The notes beneath the pieces were generated by a model, which worked only from the letters and a program-made list of their open reading frames with translations, was not told the origin of the DNA and made no database searches. From a virus: a stretch of DNA of 33,848 nucleotides. Of this stretch, positions 3,588 to 25,954 are shown piece after piece. The stretch is taken from positions 1 to 33,848 of the IMG/VR virus record IMGVR_UViG_3300045950_000063. The stretch is one strand, 5' to 3'. The position numbers and the translations under genes were made by a program. Each line of letters starts with the position of its first letter. The stretch's first letter is position 1.

Positions 3588-4865
3588 TTATTGGTTTGGT
3601 TTGCCGTTTGGTTCTAACGCTTCGATTACTGTGGTATCAACGTCAGCTTTGATTTTCTGCTCACAGATTCGTTCCACCCAGTAACCCTTTGATCTCAACC
3701 AGGCATCGCGCCTTTTGTCGCGGGCTTTTACTTCCGGCTTATTGTGCCAATACCAACCGTCAGCCTCAATAATCAGGTTACAATCCGGAATATAAAAGTC
3801 TACGATGCACCTGCCGATGATTTTCTGAGATTCGTACTTGATGCCAAGGGCGTCCAAGACTTGAGCCACCGGAACATCCAAGGAAGTTGGCTTTTTGCTG
3901 GCAAGAGCCTCCAGAGCTTTTTTGCGGAACCTGGGGTCTTCCCAGAGCTTTTTTGTTCTTTCAGCCGCTTTCCGTCTTTGCTCAGGCTCATTGGCTCGTG
4001 CCTTGACTGCCGCAATGTTTCTCGCCCTGTACTCAGGATTGCTCCATCGCGTGCGAGCCTTTTCTGCAACAACATTCTTTGCTTCATCCGTATGTTGTCT
4101 GCCTTGAAATGGTTTAAGCCCAACCATTGCGGCGCTGATCTTGGCCCTGGTTTCCGGCGATATTTCACGCCCCTTGGCCTTCTCCGAAATTTTGCGCTTG
4201 GTTTCCTCGCTAAGCATGCAACCGTATCTCGGGTTGGCCTCGCCCGCACATTTGCCCTCTTTCGCCTTGGAAATGGCCTTGCGCATCTGGTCTCTCTGAT
4301 CAGGATCAGACCACTGTGCCTTGGTGGATTCCGACAGTTTCTGGCGCGTCTCATCCGATAATGGCACCGAACGCGCCCTGTCCAGTGACTTGAGTGCCTG
4401 CGCAAGGAGCGCCTCTCGATTATCGGGATCAGACCATCTGGCCTTCATAAGCCGAGACAATTTCTCTTTGGTGGCCTCATCATGAGTGCGTCCAGCGCCG
4501 GCTTCGGTGATCTTCTCCCGATATTCCGGGTTTTCCCACCGCTTGCGGGACGACACAGACAGCTTTTGGCGGGTTTCGTCCGAAATGCCCTTTTCCAGCT
4601 TGGCTTTTATACCCTGCCGGCTGATCGCTTGCAGGTGTTCCGGATCGACTTCGTGCCGCTTCCGCGCCGCCTCGGCTATCGCCTTCCGCGCTTTCTCGCC
4701 GTGGGTGCGTCCGTGCATCGGGTTATTTTCGCCGGACACGTTGCGCTTCTTGGCCGCCTGCTTGTTGATCCCACGCATTTTCTCCTGAAAGGCGGGGTCG
4801 GCCCAACGCTGGCGAGCCTTCTCCGCTATCTTGCGCTTGGTCTCTTCGCTACGCGGCTTTGACAT
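3588..4865 (-). CDS. Free-standing homing endonuclease: NUMOD3 repeats plus EDxHD (Vsr-like) nuclease
   Basis: A 425-residue selfish endonuclease. Residues 1-310 hold about eight NUMOD3-type DNA-binding repeats of the form S-[DE]-E-T-[KR]-x-K-[IL], each ending in a RW-x-[DN]-P unit. The C-terminus is a Vsr/DUF559-like nuclease fold with the EDxHD set of residues: E367 and D369 (IIEADGWYWH), H374 and D387. This is the catalytic set described for I-Bth0305I-type phage homing endonucleases. The ATG at 4865 has GGGAGG 7 bases upstream. The gene separates the capsid gene from the next small head gene and needs no virion role; it probably entered by homing. Its cut site may lie in a capsid-region gene of relatives that lack it. 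Confidence 0.88.
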   Translation of the reverse strand: MSKPRSEETKRKIAEKARQRWADPAFQEKMRGINKQAAKKRNVSGENNPMHGRTHGEKARKAIAEAARKRHEVDPEHLQAISRQGIKAKLEKGISDETRQKLSVSSRKRWENPEYREKITEAGAGRTHDEATKEKLSRLMKARWSDPDNREALLAQALKSLDRARSVPLSDETRQKLSESTKAQWSDPDQRDQMRKAISKAKEGKCAGEANPRYGCMLSEETKRKISEKAKGREISPETRAKISAAMVGLKPFQGRQHTDEAKNVVAEKARTRWSNPEYRARNIAAVKARANEPEQRRKAAERTKKLWEDPRFRKKALEALASKKPTSLDVPVAQVLDALGIKYESQKIIGRCIVDFYIPDCNLIIEADGWYWHNKPEVKARDKRRDAWLRSKGYWVERICEQKIKADVDTTVIEALEPNGKPNQ

Positions 4866-4931
4866 TGTACCGCCTCCCACTATTCATATATTATGATTAT
4901 AGCAGGAGGCGGCTACGGTGTCAAGTTAAAC

Positions 4932-19072: not shown

Positions 19073-21265
19073 TCACACCTCATCATTCCTTGCAGCGGCA
19101 GCCCGATTATCCCGACCATGATCGATCAATCCGATCCCCTGCCAGTAACGCGCCTGCCCGGTCCGGTCCTGCTCAAATCCCCGCCGCACAAGCTCCTGGG
19201 TGAACCGCTTGCGTCCCACCGGGTACTTCTCTCCGCCCTCTCTGGCCCAGTTCAGATACGCCTTCCAGATGTCCGCATTATGCGCCCGGGCCAGGGGGTT
19301 GATCAGGCAGCAATCAGTCAAAAAATCAGTTAACGGGTCCGCTTGCTCGCGGTACTCCTCGGTGGCCGTTCGGACTTCGTCCGGTATACCCAAGCCTCCC
19401 CGTTGCCATAGCAAACAACCCTGCACCGCCCAGTTCAAAATCCCAGGCAACTCAACCAGCAACTTTTCGGGAAGTTTTTTGTCCTGTCGGGGATCTCCAT
19501 CGAGGAATTGCACACTAAAGGGGATGAGCTTCAGCCGGTTCCAGATTGCAACATCTGTCCCGCGGACCTGTGGCTTGTGGTTTGTAGCCAACCACAATTT
19601 GTGCGTCGGCCAGAATTCCCAGAAGTCTTCCCGCATTCGACGGGCTTTGATTTTGTCGCCACCGGTTAATTGCTTGACCAGCCCCTCGGCCAATCGCCGC
19701 CCCTGTTCGCTTTCGATCGAAACCACCAAGCGCCTCCCAAACAGGTCAGCTAGTTCAGTGGGATGGCGGTCATTTTTTTTCGTGATGAGCAGATCCGGAG
19801 GTGCTTGGATTGCATAATCCCCCAACGCCACCAGGAGGGTATTGAGAAATGTGCTCTTGCCATTGCGGCCCGCACCGTGGAGGACGAACAACACATGTTC
19901 CGAAGTGTCCCCGGCCAAACTCATGCCCGCTGCTCGTTGAAGAAAGTCCACCAAATTCTGGTTGCCATCCATCATCTCATCCAAGAAAGTCATCCATCGC
20001 GGGCATTCGGCTGCTGCGTCGTATACGACCGGGGCCAACTTGGTGATCAGATCCTCGCGCTGATGGGGCCGCAGCTCCCCAGTTTTGAGATTGATAGTGC
20101 CGTTCAGCATGTTTAAAAGCCATGGGTCCTGGTCAAAAATTGCTGGGGTCACAGCAACTTTTAATTCACTCGCCGCCAGGTTGACCATCGCTTTGAGGCC
20201 ACGTTCAGACTCACTCCGGATAGCGTGAGCAGCAATCTTCTTGCGCTCGTCGGGGTCAATTACCGCTGAAGCCTCAGTGTAGATTGAAGACACAGTCTCC
20301 TTTGCCCGCCGCATTACGGCCCCCGTGTTGTCCCGAGCCCACCGGATGCTGTCCCACGCCAACCACTTGCCCCACGTGTGGCAGTAACGAAGGTCTTCGC
20401 CGTGACGGAACACGAGCCGCAGCGCATTACCCAAGTCCGTCCGGTTAATCTCAAACTCGTTCTTTTCATCCCTAATCGGCGACTCCACTTTTTGACCTGT
20501 TGGCACCCATGGATCCGCCAGGGCCGTCAGCTCGAACAATTGGTCCTTGGTTCCGCCGGCAGCAATCCAATCCGAAACATCTCCCTTGTCGGGCAGGTTC
20601 TCCAGGTTCACAATCCGCACCCGGCAACCCCTGTCGTGTAGTGCTTGGGCCACCTGCTCCGCGTGCTGGCGGCCCGGTTCGTCATTGTCTGGAAGGATGG
20701 CTACCTCGGTACTGTCCGGAAAATGCTTCGAGAGCTGCGGTTTCCACTTTCCCGCGCCGCTGTGGTTGCAGGTCGCCGCAATCCCAATGGCGGCGAGGTT
20801 AAGGACATCCTTTTCGCCCTCCACAATAAAAACAGGGTCTCCCTGCTTGATTGCCGTCAGGAGTTCGGGCAACCGGAACGGCAAGGGCTCAACTCCCTTC
20901 ATGTTCCAAACCTTGCCCCCGGCCTCGTTGAGCTGACACTGGACGAAGCTTTTGGGATGGTAGCGGACGGCCTGATACCTGACCCGGCCATCGGCGTCGC
21001 GATAGTCATAGGTTGCGACGATAACCCTTTTCGCCTTGTGCGCGTTGATATCCGGCTTGAGGCCCAGGGCGTCCATAATGTCTTCATATTTGCAGCGGGC
21101 GAAACAATAGAGAAGCACTTTACCGCCCTCATCCTTGACACTGAGAGACCGGCGGCCTTGTGTCGCCCCGTCATTGTGACACGGACAAAAGCCCATCCAC
21201 TTTCCTTCGCCTGCGGGAATTGGATCTCGCACCAGAGATAGAATATCGTGAACTGAATAGCTCAA
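19073..21265 (-). CDS. Primase-helicase (CHC2 zinc finger, Toprim, D5/SF3 helicase)
   Basis: A 730-residue replication protein. Residues 27-58 form a CHC2-type zinc finger (CPCHND ... LYCFARC). A Toprim domain has FIVEGEKD (146-153) and LPDNDEPG (191-198). A D5 N-terminal region follows, then an SF3 helicase with Walker A GAGRNGKST (464-472), Walker B VVSIESE (514-520) and the LATNHKP motif (559-565). It primes and unwinds at the phage origin. The TTG at 21265 overlaps the helicase stop (TTGA), with a strong GGAGGGGGCGGAG just upstream; no ATG lies nearby. Length is normal for the fused family. Confidence 0.92.
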   Translation of the reverse strand: MSYSVHDILSLVRDPIPAGEGKWMGFCPCHNDGATQGRRSLSVKDEGGKVLLYCFARCKYEDIMDALGLKPDINAHKAKRVIVATYDYRDADGRVRYQAVRYHPKSFVQCQLNEAGGKVWNMKGVEPLPFRLPELLTAIKQGDPVFIVEGEKDVLNLAAIGIAATCNHSGAGKWKPQLSKHFPDSTEVAILPDNDEPGRQHAEQVAQALHDRGCRVRIVNLENLPDKGDVSDWIAAGGTKDQLFELTALADPWVPTGQKVESPIRDEKNEFEINRTDLGNALRLVFRHGEDLRYCHTWGKWLAWDSIRWARDNTGAVMRRAKETVSSIYTEASAVIDPDERKKIAAHAIRSESERGLKAMVNLAASELKVAVTPAIFDQDPWLLNMLNGTINLKTGELRPHQREDLITKLAPVVYDAAAECPRWMTFLDEMMDGNQNLVDFLQRAAGMSLAGDTSEHVLFVLHGAGRNGKSTFLNTLLVALGDYAIQAPPDLLITKKNDRHPTELADLFGRRLVVSIESEQGRRLAEGLVKQLTGGDKIKARRMREDFWEFWPTHKLWLATNHKPQVRGTDVAIWNRLKLIPFSVQFLDGDPRQDKKLPEKLLVELPGILNWAVQGCLLWQRGGLGIPDEVRTATEEYREQADPLTDFLTDCCLINPLARAHNADIWKAYLNWAREGGEKYPVGRKRFTQELVRRGFEQDRTGQARYWQGIGLIDHGRDNRAAAARNDEV

Positions 21266-23829
21266 CTCCGCCCCCTCCGTTTCAGCCCGCTACCGGTATT
21301 CGGCATCCCCAGCCGACGGTAAACCTTTCGGCGTGCCCAGTGTTGCGCCCTGAGCGGTGGTATCAGCTCATCCACGAAGTCGAACACCGCCGCGTCGAGC
21401 TTGCTTGTGCCCCCCAGGGTATCTGTGAATGGCCGCTGAATCCGGCCTACCTGTTGCTCTGTTACCGCCTCATTCCGGCCACCGCCAACCAAGAACAACC
21501 GATCCAGACGCGGAATGTCGAGACCTTCCTTAGCGATTTCGACGGCGAACAGGACGTCACACTTGCCTGCTTGCGTCAACTCAATGATCTTCTCGCGCAC
21601 TTTTTTGGCCAGCCCCCCGTGGATCACCGACGATCTGAGCCGGGGCTTGATGCCGCGATCCAGTTCCGCCTTGTTGAGCAAATGAGCCAACTGCAGACAA
21701 TGCTCCACCCGCTTCGAGAGAACCAGCGCATAGTGTCCCGGACACTCACGGAGTAAAGTTTCCACAATCAATAAATTGCGCTCATCGTGCGTGAGCAACT
21801 CGTCCAACAAGGTGCTCCAATCTACGATCGGGGCCTTCGGCGCGACCTTGCCCTGTAGGCGCAGCTCCGCCGCTCGCTTCTGATACTCCTTCATCCGCTC
21901 CGCGTGCCTCTTCCAAACCGCAGACTCGACACCGGTGTTGATTACCGTTAGCGTCGGCACCATCAACCGATCACTCACCGCCACCCTGGATACCGTGTGA
22001 AACGTCGGCCCGATCACCCGCTCCGTGATCACTTGTAGGCCATCGGCACGCTCCGGGGTCGCCGTCACGCCGAAGCGATAGCGGGCCGATAGTTGATTCA
22101 TCACGTGAACCCAGGTTGGCGAACTGCCGTGATGACAGTTATGGACGACAAATCCGTTTGCCGTGTAGGTGTGGTGGTGCCCAACCTCGAAATTGTAGAC
22201 ATGACCGTCTGGACACAATCCGCCAAACATTCCATCACTTCCCGGTTTGAGAACCTCAACACGGTCCACCCTAACGAGGCGAGGAACGTATCCTTCTTCC
22301 GATCCAAGCCTTTGCGGCTGTAATGGGAACGGCCGTCCACTTCGATGGCAATCTTTAGTTTGCGGTTCGCGATATCCACTTTGTAACAAGTCGGATATCC
22401 GCTGTCCCTGGGCATCTTGGTCCGGATCGCTATTTCCATCGGCCAATCCAGAGTCTGAGCTAGTAGCTGCTGCGGTTTCGTTGGGCCTTTGCCATTGCCG
22501 CCTCGAAGCACCGGTTTCCAGTTGCCCCTTTCCCGTTTTATGGCCGCAACTCGCGCTTTGATTGCCGGATCGCTCATTGGGTTGTTCTTTTTCATCCGAG
22601 CCGAAGCATATTTCCGGTTCGTCTTGGCCATCGCTTGAGAACTGATACGGCTTTTCCGCGTGTCCCTGCACACATCCGAGCAACATGTTACTCCCCGGCT
22701 CTGATAGTGCTCGTACTTGGAAGCTTCCTTCTTGGTCAGTCTGGTCAGCGTGACCGGATTCCCACATTCGCTGCAAGTTGTCTCGATCTTCGAACGCGCT
22801 CGCATCTGGGCTGCTCGGCAAATGCGACACAGCGATTTTGGATTGTTGGTGCTCCTGATTTTTCCGCAAATCGGACACGGAAGCTTGATCGACATAAAGC
22901 AATTCACGTCCTTCAGGTAATAAGATTGCGGGCACCCAGCCAAATCGAGTAAGGAATGGATGTGTAGGGGTACACACGATCGTCTTCCCGCCAACAGATA
23001 ATTTAATGAGCCTCGATGGTGCAGGACGTTTAAACAAGCGAACGACTTTACTGGGTACTGGTTGACGGTTGTTCTCATCCCAGGCCGTGACTGTGTCGCC
23101 AACTTTAACAGTCTCAATAGGCCTGCCGTCGATTAGCGTTCCGGCCGGGAAGCACTCATCGAGCACCACAGTCCCGAACTGCCGCCCCAGCTCCGCCAAG
23201 TCCATTCTGGTCAACGTCTGAATAATTCCGATCGTCAGCCGATCGCCGATCTTCCGCACCCCGTCACCGATCAGCCCGACCTCCGGCCGCTCCAGGCCCA
23301 GCACCCTACACGCCCGCTCCGCGGCTTGGTTGGCCAGATCTTTGGTGTGGGTCAACCACAACGCCGGCTGCTGTAAACGAGCAATGATCTCCAGGCCGAC
23401 TTCGGTCTTGCCGCTACCGGCCGGTGCCTGCAGCACTCCACCCGTGGCCTTGATCGCCGCCTCGACCGCCGGAACCTGGTAGTCACGCAGTACGACCTTA
23501 GAGCCGAAGCCCACCGGATTCAAGGTCACCCGCTCATCCACCGCGTCCCAGCTGATCCGGAACGATCTCAACAAGGCCGCCAGTGCCTTACCGTAGCCAC
23601 GCGGCACGGCCAGCGTCCCGGTCAGCGCATCGTACTCCCACAGCACGATATGCTCCGGGATGTTGCCCGCATAGCGACCGTAGTTCACAGCCTCCGCGTA
23701 CTCCGGGTTGTCGACCAGCATGTCGTCACGGATTGCCTGGACGAACTGCGGCTCGGTCTGCCGGATGTCCGGCGTTAGCCTGAAGTGGATTTTGGAGTCG
23801 ATCGTTAAACTCAGCCGTAGTGAGGCCAC
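21262..23829 (-). CDS. SF2 DNA helicase interrupted by an intein
   Basis: An 855-residue precursor. The exteins form an SF2 helicase: Q-motif region VVLRDYQVPAVEAA, Walker A APAGSGKT (135-142), motif Ia WLTHTKDLAN, motif II DECH split by the intein, motif III FGVTATPERADG (586-597), then RecA domain 2 with SSVIHGG and a final QQVGRIQRPF (motif VI). The spliced product is about 516 residues. It probably acts in replication fork or recombination remodelling, like phage UvsW- or RecG-type enzymes. GTG start at 23829 after AAAGGTGG. It lies between the primase and the decayed SleB region. Activity depends on splicing because the intein splits the ATPase motif. Confidence 0.9.
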   Translation of the reverse strand: MASLRLSLTIDSKIHFRLTPDIRQTEPQFVQAIRDDMLVDNPEYAEAVNYGRYAGNIPEHIVLWEYDALTGTLAVPRGYGKALAALLRSFRISWDAVDERVTLNPVGFGSKVVLRDYQVPAVEAAIKATGGVLQAPAGSGKTEVGLEIIARLQQPALWLTHTKDLANQAAERACRVLGLERPEVGLIGDGVRKIGDRLTIGIIQTLTRMDLAELGRQFGTVVLDECFPAGTLIDGRPIETVKVGDTVTAWDENNRQPVPSKVVRLFKRPAPSRLIKLSVGGKTIVCTPTHPFLTRFGWVPAILLPEGRELLYVDQASVSDLRKNQEHQQSKIAVSHLPSSPDASAFEDRDNLQRMWESGHADQTDQEGSFQVRALSEPGSNMLLGCVQGHAEKPYQFSSDGQDEPEICFGSDEKEQPNERSGNQSASCGHKTGKGQLETGASRRQWQRPNETAAATSSDSGLADGNSDPDQDAQGQRISDLLQSGYREPQTKDCHRSGRPFPLQPQRLGSEEGYVPRLVRVDRVEVLKPGSDGMFGGLCPDGHVYNFEVGHHHTYTANGFVVHNCHHGSSPTWVHVMNQLSARYRFGVTATPERADGLQVITERVIGPTFHTVSRVAVSDRLMVPTLTVINTGVESAVWKRHAERMKEYQKRAAELRLQGKVAPKAPIVDWSTLLDELLTHDERNLLIVETLLRECPGHYALVLSKRVEHCLQLAHLLNKAELDRGIKPRLRSSVIHGGLAKKVREKIIELTQAGKCDVLFAVEIAKEGLDIPRLDRLFLVGGGRNEAVTEQQVGRIQRPFTDTLGGTSKLDAAVFDFVDELIPPLRAQHWARRKVYRRLGMPNTGSGLKRRGRS
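22101..22895 (-). CDS. EDxHD homing endonuclease nested out of frame inside the intein
   Basis: A 264-residue protein in the +1 frame relative to the intein. Two zinc fingers come first: C7/C10 with C23/C26 (CPICGK, CRICRA) and C41/C44 with C71/C72 and C76 (CSECGN, CCSDVC). Then come a NUMOD3-like segment (MKKNNPMSDPAIKARV) and a Vsr/DUF559-like nuclease with E185, D187 (IAIEVDGRSHY), H191 and D202. The frame is open upstream to 23117; ATG 22895 is chosen as the first residue of the recognisable protein, with AAGGA 13 bases upstream, which is weak. The stop lies 37 bases beyond the intein, in C-extein DNA. It likely provides homing for the intein. Confidence 0.82.
   Translation of the reverse strand: MSIKLPCPICGKIRSTNNPKSLCRICRAAQMRARSKIETTCSECGNPVTLTRLTKKEASKYEHYQSRGVTCCSDVCRDTRKSRISSQAMAKTNRKYASARMKKNNPMSDPAIKARVAAIKRERGNWKPVLRGGNGKGPTKPQQLLAQTLDWPMEIAIRTKMPRDSGYPTCYKVDIANRKLKIAIEVDGRSHYSRKGLDRKKDTFLASLGWTVLRFSNREVMECLADCVQTVMSTISRLGTTTPTRQTDLSSITVITAVRQPGFT
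22138..23154 (-). mobile_element. Intein inserted in the DExx box of the helicase
   Basis: Residues 226-564 of the precursor (339 codons). Block A starts at Cys1 with CFPAGTLIDGRPIETVKVGD. Block B is GGKTIVCTPTHPFLTRFGW with the TxxH pair. Blocks F and G are HVYNFEVGHHHTYTANGFVV and a terminal His-Asn, followed by Cys at +1. The insertion is between Glu and Cys of VVLDE/CHHG, in helicase motif II. The central 200 codons of this frame are hydrophilic and resemble no endonuclease; that region instead encodes one in the +1 frame. Confidence 0.93.
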
Positions 23830-23858
23830 CTACTCACCACCTTTCGCAGGGAAGGGGT

Positions 23859-24215
23859 CTACTCTTTAATGGCCTCCATCCCCAGCACCTGCCTGATCGC
23901 ACGTTTCGCCTCAGTCCGCATATCTGCACACTTCCGCCAACGCTCACCGGCCGGCACATCCGCCATGCCGTCCGTTAGGGCGCGGTGGGCAAGCTCAAGC
24001 GCCGCCCGTGCCTCTGCAGTCAGGTATGTCTCCAAACCCTTCTCCTCATTGGTGTATGCTTTTTCGTTATAGATGACTGTGTCGCTAGGATATGACATCG
24101 GATAGTAGTACCGACACCCTTCCGCGTCCAGCGCCGGACCGGGACAAGACATCCGGTTGAAATGGCAGGACTTGCACTGCTCCCTTTCCACCACGTATGG
24201 CGTACAGTTTTCCAC
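23859..24215 (-). CDS. Cysteine-containing unknown protein, fused in frame to a SleB remnant
   Basis: An approximately 118-residue protein. The N-terminal part has REQCKSCHFNRMSCPGPALD and GCRYYYPMSYPSD, a likely zinc-binding cluster. The C-terminal half is helical (LTAEARAALELAHRALTDGM). GTG 24215 is preferred, 9 bases after GAGGTG; GTG 24221 and 24227 are alternatives. The frame is also open upstream to 24431 because a deletion joined it to the SleB remnant, so a 190-residue fusion could also be made. The intact hydrolase gene has an equivalent GCGAGGTGA end followed by a new gene, which supports an independent start here. Confidence 0.55.
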   Translation of the reverse strand: MENCTPYVVEREQCKSCHFNRMSCPGPALDAEGCRYYYPMSYPSDTVIYNEKAYTNEEKGLETYLTAEARAALELAHRALTDGMADVPAGERWRKCADMRTEAKRAIRQVLGMEAIKE

Positions 24216-24223
24216 GCTCACTC

Positions 24224-24431
24224 TCACCTCGCAAAAGTATGGTTGCCCACTTGGGCGGTTATTTCCCGGCTCCGAATCCACCCATAGCGCGAACCGGTTG
24301 AACTCGACCGTATCCGGCCACCTGGGGTCGCCTACGCGGTTTAAAACGACAGCGCCCACCGCCACTTTACCTTCGTGAGATTCGCCTTTTGCTTCGGCGG
24401 CAATTAGTTGGGCATAGTCAGCGTGAGCCAC
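24224..24431 (-). pseudogene. Decayed duplicate of the SleB-like hydrolase gene
   Basis: From GTG 24431 (AGGGGG 8 bases upstream) the frame reads AQLIAAEAKGESHEGKVAVG and VLNRVGDPRWPDTVE, nearly the same as the intact hydrolase gene. About 46 codons of the domain centre are then missing. The remaining 3' end, GWIRSREI...NHTFAR and stop, matches the end of the intact gene (GWIRGREV...NHTFAR) but in another frame. The deletion is therefore out of frame and the active domain is lost. Confidence 0.75.
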
Positions 24432-24696
24432 TCTTATTACCCCCTCGTTGCCAATGTTCACAAGTGCGCCAGCAGGCTATATTATTGCCATACCCAACCG
24501 GGCACTCATTGCTGTGGCACTGACCAACGGCATAAACCCACTTCTCGCTCCCGTCCGGCATCATAAGCCCGCTGTCCTCGGTTCCGGTGCGCTCCCAATG
24601 GCGGCAGGTGCCGCAGTTTTTCTTCATCACCTTCCCCCCGCCCACTGTGTACTCGGCGCGGCGACCGCCGCAGTTGGGTGCTTTACAAATATCCAT
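24418..24696 (-). CDS. Small multi-cysteine zinc-binding protein
   Basis: A 92-residue protein with CKAPNCGG at the N-terminus, NCGTCRHWERTG, then QCHSNECPVG and CWRTCEHWQRGG. The paired C-x-x-C-x-H/E-W units suggest two zinc knuckles. ATG 24696 has GAGGTG 7 bases upstream, in the end of the previous gene. An internal ATG 24627 after GAAGGTG is possible. Such proteins are common in Bacillota phages between early genes; the role is unknown. Confidence 0.6.
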   Translation of the reverse strand: MDICKAPNCGGRRAEYTVGGGKVMKKNCGTCRHWERTGTEDSGLMMPDGSEKWVYAVGQCHSNECPVGYGNNIACWRTCEHWQRGGNKSGSR

Positions 24697-24702
24697 TCCC
24701 TT

Positions 24703-25392
24703 TCACCTCGCAAAAGTATGGTTTTCGATCACCGTCACGACTTCCCGCCCCCGAATCCACCCACACCGACTCACTTCAGCGTTATAGAAATACACCGAAT
24801 CCCCCACGGGATTAACCCCACTTAGTGCCTCTCTCGCCGCCCTCTCCGCCTCTGGTGTCGCTTCTGTTGGTGTGGCAAACTGTCCAGGCTGTAGCACTAC
24901 CCCCTCGACCGTATCCGGCCACCTGGGGTCATTGACCCGGTTGAGCACTACAGCTCCGACAGCCACTTTGCCTTGATAAGGTTCACCGCGAGCCTCGGCG
25001 TGAATGAGCGCCGCCAGCAGTTCCTGGTCGAGGTCCGCAGGCTCATCCTCAACCACCACAGCCACACTTTCGGCAGTCGGCATTCTGTCCAGCTCATGGT
25101 CAATCGCCGGTCCCAATAGATCTGTTGCGGCCAGCCATAGCATCAGCAGCACCCCGGCCACCATCAGCAGGTTGACTAGCGCCTTCTGCCACCGCCAGTG
25201 GCGCGACCGCCCAGCCCGTCGTCTGGCCACTTCCTCCATCACCTGATCCTGAGTGAGCAGAGGCATCCCATTCCGGATTGCTCGCTGCCGAATGGTACGC
25301 AGTCTGCGACCCAGCGGCGTACGCGGCTCATTCTGCATCGCGGCGCGAATCTCGTCAGCGCCCAGGCGGGCTTTTAGTTTGGGGTAGGGCAT
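24703..25392 (-). CDS. Membrane-anchored SleB-like cell wall hydrolase (Hydrolase_2)
   Basis: A 229-residue protein. Residues 1-65 are basic and cytoplasmic. A transmembrane segment follows (LVNLLMVAGVLLMLWLAATD), then an acidic linker and a C-terminal SleB/CwlJ-type domain: LLAALIHAEARGEPYQGKVA, VLNRVNDPRWPDTVEGVV, QPGQFATPTEATPEAERAAR and GDSVYFYNAEVSRCGWIRGR. The Glu in AEARGE is the expected catalytic residue. SleB proteins are lytic transglycosylases that degrade spore cortex peptidoglycan. ATG 25392 has GGAAGGGG 8 bases upstream. Finding it in the replication operon instead of a lysis module is odd; it overlaps the MmcB-like gene by 38 bases. Confidence 0.8.
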   Translation of the reverse strand: MPYPKLKARLGADEIRAAMQNEPRTPLGRRLRTIRQRAIRNGMPLLTQDQVMEEVARRRAGRSRHWRWQKALVNLLMVAGVLLMLWLAATDLLGPAIDHELDRMPTAESVAVVVEDEPADLDQELLAALIHAEARGEPYQGKVAVGAVVLNRVNDPRWPDTVEGVVLQPGQFATPTEATPEAERAAREALSGVNPVGDSVYFYNAEVSRCGWIRGREVVTVIENHTFAR

Positions 25393-25954
25393 CTCGGGCA
25401 CCCCTTCCTTCCAAGCGTCGCATTATTGCGCCTATATCCTGTCGCGTCTCCTGAATCTCCCCTTGGATCTTAGTAAGCATCCGTAATCCATTGTTCTGAG
25501 TCATTTGACGCATCACAACGCCCTCCAGCAGATCAATATAATGCTCATCATCCGGGCGCTCCTGAAGTCGACTACAACCCCGAACATATCTATGATCCAG
25601 GAGGTAAAATGGGTCACCGCGCCAGCCTGTTCGCTCCTCGTACCAGAACTCGACCAGCCCTATCCCCGCAGGCAATTCATCCGGTTGAATCGCGTTCTTG
25701 GGCGCAACAAAAGCGAAATGTGTACAATAAGGCAGATATGATTGCCACTTGTGGTCAGAAATAAAATCGGCCCGCCCGGACTTAATTTCTAGAATGCGAA
25801 TTTCCCGCTTTAGGCGGTTTATGCCCAGCACGTCGAACCGTATTAAATCCTGGTATGGACCGATTTCCTTAGCCTTGAATCCGTATCCATCCAGTAGGTG
25901 CTCAAGGCAGTATTTTCGCATTTCGTCAACGTCGTCAACCGATACGGTCTTCAT
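25355..25954 (-). CDS. MmcB-like PD-(D/E)XK DNA repair family protein
   Basis: A 199-residue protein. The core RIEILEIK-type strand appears as EIRILEIKSGRADFISDHKW, then YLPYCTHFAFVAPKNAI and PAGIGLVEFWYEE. This is the MmcB family signature (Asp in the strand before, E-x-K, then Asp and Lys). MmcB relatives are linked to DNA repair and translesion synthesis in other bacteria. The C-terminal 60 residues are a helical extension. ATG 25954 has GGAGGA 7 bases upstream. Next to SbcC/SbcD, a role in DNA end or break processing is plausible. Confidence 0.7.
   Translation of the reverse strand: MKTVSVDDVDEMRKYCLEHLLDGYGFKAKEIGPYQDLIRFDVLGINRLKREIRILEIKSGRADFISDHKWQSYLPYCTHFAFVAPKNAIQPDELPAGIGLVEFWYEERTGWRGDPFYLLDHRYVRGCSRLQERPDDEHYIDLLEGVVMRQMTQNNGLRMLTKIQGEIQETRQDIGAIMRRLEGRGARDALPQTKSPPGR

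Follow-up and report, generated by a model that had tools for sequence, protein, structure and literature searches.

A viral helicase intein with a probable homing endonuclease overprinted in a second reading frame

The helicase gene of a viral genome, studied here over the whole 33,848-nucleotide stretch of IMG/VR record IMGVR_UViG_3300045950_000063 (hereafter the window), very probably carries a mobile intein whose homing endonuclease is the product of an overprinted gene, rather than a domain in frame with the splicing elements. This view is built on what comparison of the loci shows of the architecture of the element, selection on both of its frames, the empty sites of its relatives and its phylogenetic placement; from these we infer protein splicing, DNA cleavage, homing and internal initiation of translation. 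Roughly one hundred further genes of phages and bacteria share this double-coded design. Inteins would thereby have a second way of carrying a homing enzyme, in which the dose and structure of the enzyme are freed from protein splicing.

Architecture of the intein and the overlapping nuclease gene

The minus strand of the window is open from 21262 to 23829 as a single uninterrupted ORF of 855 codons, coding for an SF2 helicase precursor (PHROG match: DNA helicase, 1.3e-58) in which the Pfam domains ResIII (1.4e-17) and Helicase_C (2.2e-13) flank an intein on both sides. A preliminary description made from the letters alone had placed a complete intein at 22138-23154 with the precursor open across it, and both points are borne out: the host ORF is unbroken in the window, rather than parted into two ORFs as in fractured genes with split inteins. 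The features of the locus are as follows:

21262-23829 (-): SF2 helicase precursor, 855 aa, recognized by one open frame and domain matches
23829-23155 (-): N-extein of the helicase
22137-21262 (-): C-extein of the helicase
22138-23154 (-): intein of 339 aa (precursor residues 226-564), interrupting the DExH (Walker B) motif
22825-23154 (-): IntN splicing half, intein residues 1-110, with block A C1 and block B T62xxH65
22285-22824 (-): intein-frame filler, intein residues 111-290, stop-free and predicted to be without structure
22138-22284 (-): IntC splicing half, intein residues 291-339, with VYNFEV of block F and VVHN of block G
22101-22895 (-): candidate EDxHD homing endonuclease gene, +1 relative to the helicase, 264 aa, recognized by DUF559, fold match and third-position substitution bias
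22893-22895 (-): probable ATG start codon of the endonuclease, where the N-terminal CxxC region common to relatives begins
22909-22913 (-): AAGGA, a possible Shine-Dalgarno sequence 13 nt before the ATG, a spacing longer than ideal
22302-22376 (-): catalytic stretch of the endonuclease, D174...E185-x-D187...H191...D198, of the EDxHD type, columns invariant in 55 sequences
22230-22274 (-): dual-coded block, one stretch of DNA giving LGWTVLRFSNREVME in the endonuclease and RVDRVEVLKPGSDG in the intein, each family having conserved residues here

The insertion junctions read VVLDE-CFPAGT...FVVHN-CHHGSS (hyphens marking the ends of the intein), with Cys1 at 23154 and Asn339 at 22138. Thus, the insert has the N-terminal Cys/Ser (Cys1 of block A, CFPAGT), the TxxH block B (T62-x-x-H65), the C-terminal His-Asn (H338-N339 of VVHN) and the Cys/Ser/Thr at +1 (here Cys) by which inteins are recognized. 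Across 53 inteins of the family C1 and H65 are invariant, 27 of 30 members match TIGR01443 (intein_Cterm), and the intein profile matches solved intein structures, the best being 2lwy (2e-18); the Pfam Intein_splicing match of the precursor itself (2.8e-5) lies below the gathering score of that model. AlphaFold2 models, for which the alignments comprised only the window and IMG/VR loci, gave pLDDT values of 96-98 for IntN up to about residue 90 and 82-85 thereafter, and 93-97 for IntC. The two halves, with pLDDT >90 over most of their length, retrieve HINT-fold structures such as 2in0 and 3ifj in Foldseek with a probability of 1.00. The 180-residue filler has a pLDDT of 41-58 and no secondary structure in its model. 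Hence, the intein frame is predicted to encode two confident HINT halves parted by an unstructured filler. The latter shows low conservation among relatives and lies between blocks B and F, which is where inteins usually carry the endonuclease domain (PMC6801210). A hydrophilic filler had been placed at about precursor residues 318-518; the stretch predicted to be unstructured has its limits at about 336-515.

Over the same DNA the shifted frame is open from 23117 to 22101, with the likely protein running from the ATG at 22895 to the stop at 22101. This 264-aa product matches DUF559 (5e-13), as do all 33 of the family members, and has two CxxC-type zinc regions. Its AlphaFold2 model (mean pLDDT 88) finds the catalytic domain of I-Bth0305I (3r3p; probability 1.00, E 1.2e-3) as the best solved match, and the residues D174, E185, D187, H191 and D198, typical of the EDxHD (Vsr-like) catalytic fold, are invariant. 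The zinc-finger/EDxHD ORF proposed for the +1 frame is therefore confirmed, except that it does not end with the intein: besides the end of IntN and the entire filler, the gene covers IntC completely and extends some 13 codons into the C-extein. The endonuclease lies in the +1 frame both in the window and in all contiguous relatives, rather than in frame as a part of the excised protein. From the DNA at 22274-22230 the nuclease takes the residues LGWTVLRF and the intein RVDRVEV, and both families conserve residues there.

Elsewhere in the window (3588-4880, minus strand), just downstream of the major head protein gene, we found the gene of a second EDxHD-type enzyme. This is a free-standing homing endonuclease of 430 aa in which a NUMOD3 domain is combined with a DUF559/Vsr-like one. 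Adjoining the helicase region are two cell-wall-hydrolase (PF07486) genes at 23859-24461 and 24703-25401 (minus strand), the first of which matches only the first 28 profile positions and looks chimeric or degraded.

Distribution of the arrangement and selection on the two frames

A tblastn-based search of viral sequences with the endonuclease as query, which is blind to the surrounding frame, returned 80 loci, and in 72 of them the host frame is open across the whole endonuclease with one constant offset. Among the contiguous viral relatives, every locus of sufficient length to reveal an intein contains one. The 64 inteins that could be delimited span 277-389 aa and nearly all conform to DE-C...(H/S)N-(C/S) at Walker B motifs, their hosts being genes for SF2 and SNF2-type helicases, DnaX-like clamp loaders and one D12 methyltransferase. 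A search started from the IntC sequence rather than the nuclease gave 66 contiguous and three split loci out of 80, with a single offset throughout; viral contigs searched with the whole helicase precursor as query gave no matches. Full-length relatives from cellular genomes and isolated phages are contiguous and out of frame in 22 of 23 cases, with Ktedonobacter racemifer among them. Isolated phages bearing the element are Corynebacterium phage phi673, Pseudomonas phage MR14 and Vibrio phages CP-T1, 104E43.1, 159E43-1b, 1.088.O, 1.194.O and K391. Thus, the search for further inteins with out-of-frame EDxHD ORFs, which had been suggested at the outset, yielded about 100 independently sequenced loci, finished isolate genomes among them, these being loci that share ancestry and were sampled from one query, so that the counts do not equal independent events. 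In all eight isolate records examined the nuclease gene is unannotated and only the helicase-length ORF is recorded, indicating that annotation misses a class of homing nucleases.

The notion that any DUF559 gene shows this pattern was rejected, as stops interrupt both alternative frames of the ordinary short DUF559 genes (L122 and later). Among the loci retrieved, a single 1322-aa SNF2-type ORF (L069, 2762-6727) has an in-frame LAGLIDADG match upstream in addition to an out-of-frame EDxHD intein. By way of contrast, another intein, in a protein that looks like QueE (L235, 1439-3061), appears to hold a Vsr-like nuclease in frame. In three further loci (L031, L043 and L050) free-standing relatives of the nuclease lie directly upstream of intein-less helicase genes.

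To measure the constraint on the intein frame we shuffled the synonymous codons of the endonuclease, keeping its protein sequence and codon usage. In the window the intein frame has no stops over the 264 endonuclease codons versus 10.2 expected, with none of 300 shuffles as low, and the third frame has 13 stops versus 12.6 expected. Over 81 viral loci the intein frame again lacks stops (675.6 expected) and the third frame has 1351 (1251 expected); the 21 cellular loci likewise have none in the intein frame versus 162.8 expected. Where an NNY codon of the endonuclease precedes AA, AG or GA its third base is C in 895 instances and T in none, versus 1438 C and 2457 T elsewhere. The comparison of substitutions in both frames, also proposed beforehand, showed that between close pairs they concentrate on the third codon positions of the endonuclease, i.e. 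on the bases that open the codons of the intein frame: Vibrio phages 1.088.O and 1.194.O, for example, differ at endonuclease positions 1/2/3 by 5/0/32 substitutions. Further, at 60-75% DNA identity the amino acid identity is 0.56 in the endonuclease frame versus 0.40 in the intein frame. This pattern indicates that the endonuclease is under purifying selection; the third-position substitutions and its better conservation imply that constraint on the nuclease concerns its protein sequence and constraint on the filler chiefly the absence of stops. As a large collection of gene overlaps on one strand, the family displays an exceptionally clean signal of selection.

These observations bear on two alternative readings. 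The first of these traces the offset to indels that arose in sequencing or assembly, or to two frameshifts that displaced an endonuclease domain which had once been in frame and has decayed. A single sequence with such errors would indeed look like this, but a common offset with open frames in about 100 loci, including isolated phages, the absence of the 676 stops expected and purifying selection on the shifted frame render this explanation vanishingly improbable. In-frame homologues would have pointed to indel errors, and no full-length homologue with the endonuclease in frame with the intein was found. The second alternative, namely removal of an ORF-bearing intron at the RNA level with the open intein frame being incidental, could draw on the presence of EDxHD enzymes in group I introns (PMC3943268). 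However, the intein blocks are conserved, a HINT fold is predicted and stops are strictly absent; moreover, an Rfam search over 20500-24500 of the window gave no match to a group I intron or other RNA even at E 0.5, and we regard this possibility as highly improbable.

The overprinted intein can be accommodated by a peculiarity of the genetic code: all stop codons in the intein frame begin with a T in the third position of a nuclease codon, and each NNT codon has a synonymous NNC. Because this exchange is always available, the host frame can always be opened with the nuclease unaltered, and a synonymous change of NNT to NNC would keep it open almost free of cost. In the other frame, opening by synonymous choice is impossible for 62 of 72 nucleases. 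The code-imposed offset therefore explains why the design can work, with common descent being the simplest reason for all members sharing the same offset.

Expression and mobility of the element

A Shine-Dalgarno match of at least 5 nt precedes 33 of 72 endonuclease starts versus 6 of 251 internal ATG pairs (p=4e-19). In the relatives the endonuclease frame opens a median of 241 nt after Cys1 and in no case ahead of it. Frequently an in-frame stop precedes the ATG by a few nucleotides, the median distance from the stop to the first ATG being 12 nt. Given this enrichment and the opening of the frame inside the intein, the endonuclease is best read as being initiated separately within the intein from its own start codons. 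The window on its own would also be compatible with a programmed +1 shift of ribosomes out of the helicase frame, by which IntN would be fused to the endonuclease in place of a separately initiated enzyme. Here the endonuclease frame, open from 23117 onwards, has no stop in most of IntN, and its start site is weak, with the AAGGA poorly spaced. Against this stand the strong Shine-Dalgarno sequences at many endonuclease starts and the opening of the frame within the intein in all 64 loci; we therefore rejected the frameshift fusion as a general mechanism and consider frameshifting quite unlikely in the window.

Near-identical phages with empty sites delimit the element exactly. The helicase genes of phi673 and phi674 (99.1% DNA identity) differ by an exact 302-aa intein, the difference between those of CP-T1 and VchM-138 (96.4%) is a 353-aa intein, and 1.194.O and 234P10 likewise represent intein-bearing and empty forms. 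In-frame insertion is thus evident from the open host frame and from these empty sites in relatives (phi674, VchM-138 and 234P10); no intein-less allele of the window's own helicase gene was found. The report on phi673 noted the intein difference and describes no homing enzyme in the intein (PMC6132909). Phage K461 has a 150-aa mini-intein without a nuclease at the site used in the 1.194.O/234P10 comparison.

These comparisons suggest that the out-of-frame nuclease probably spreads the insert. Alternatively, the intein may splice with a nuclease that is no longer homing and is kept for another role, such as the exclusion of competitors, EDxHD/DUF559 folds being known to serve several roles. 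We deem this unlikely, since near-identical phages differ by exactly the intein and members of the family occupy conserved Walker B codons of several genes unrelated to one another, as homing elements do. In the favored scenario, with an actively homing overprinted nuclease, ribosomes on the helicase message would read through the whole intein including its unstructured filler (approximately 180 residues), after which the HINT halves on either side would splice the helicase together. Other ribosomes would start inside the intein at the start codon of the endonuclease to yield a free zinc-finger/EDxHD nuclease. The probable targets of this enzyme are the Walker B codons in copies of the host gene that lack the intein; repair of the cut copies would copy in the intein and the nuclease together.

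Split inteins and related systems

Several members of the family (L056/L058, L060, L074 and L119) encode IntN and IntC in separate ORFs with the nuclease between them at an unchanged offset. Here the overlap of the nuclease gene amounts to about 105 nt with IntN and about 135 nt with IntC, and the dual-coded block is kept. In the split members put through the shuffling test, stops in the intein frame are about as frequent as expected by chance. In the phylogenetic tree the split members form one clade (SH-aLRT 99) that lies beside a contiguous member and inside the contiguous set, the support for this nesting being moderate (SH-aLRT 81 and 91). This placement favors a change from contiguous to split, suggesting that these fractured genes probably descend from contiguous out-of-frame inteins; a host frame that later gained stops would leave IntN and IntC split, with the nuclease gene in between. 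More generally, we lean, with some reserve, towards the view that out-of-frame overprinting is a stable and ancient lifestyle of EDxHD-carrying phage inteins, enabled by the sole offset in which synonymous choices can always keep stops out, and that breakdown of the filler frame gives rise to split inteins with intervening nuclease genes. Split inteins are major protein-engineering tools of debated natural origin, and this view supplies a concrete and testable path by which they could arise from contiguous ones. A clamp-loader intein (L067, 4166-6307) has one intein-frame stop over the nuclease versus 15.2 expected; it looks freshly broken, and is possibly either a split intein being born or a sequencing error.

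Dassa et al. (2009) reportedly described fractured genes in which split inteins have a free-standing EDxHD (Vsr-like) endonuclease between their halves. These share with the present family the nuclease type and a location in phage DNA-metabolism genes, and the family has split members too; in contrast, the window and most of its relatives have an unbroken host ORF, with the nuclease gene overlapping a contiguous intein frame along its length. Inteins with in-frame endonucleases, such as PI-SceI and PI-PfuI, also have HINT halves, insertion at a conserved motif and an endonuclease coded between blocks B and F (PMC6801210), but in the window this enzyme is a separate protein from the +1 frame and the in-frame sequence is filler. 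I-Bth0305I (PDB 3r3p), an EDxHD homing endonuclease with a similar catalytic-domain fold, is borne by a group I intron rather than an intein. ShiLan, reported in 2025, is an out-of-frame HNH endonuclease in a phage methylase (PMC11855218); it too is mobile and lies over a stop-free host frame, but it lacks an intein splicing domain, unlike the window with its complete splicing halves and EDxHD nuclease. The arrangement had been thought to be new, and in the literature searched, with Dassa et al. 2009 and a 2025 preprint on Actinobacteriophage inteins of 'non-canonical architecture' (10.1101/2025.01.02.630785) outside its scope, we met with no account of an out-of-frame nuclease in a complete intein; out-of-frame HNH enzymes (2025) and EDxHD genes in split inteins (2009) do precede it. 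A further split intein (L242, 2513-4699), in a protein with a radical-SAM-like CxxxCxxC motif, has an HNH-like-looking nuclease between its halves, which is also at a +1 offset and overlaps both intein halves at their edges.
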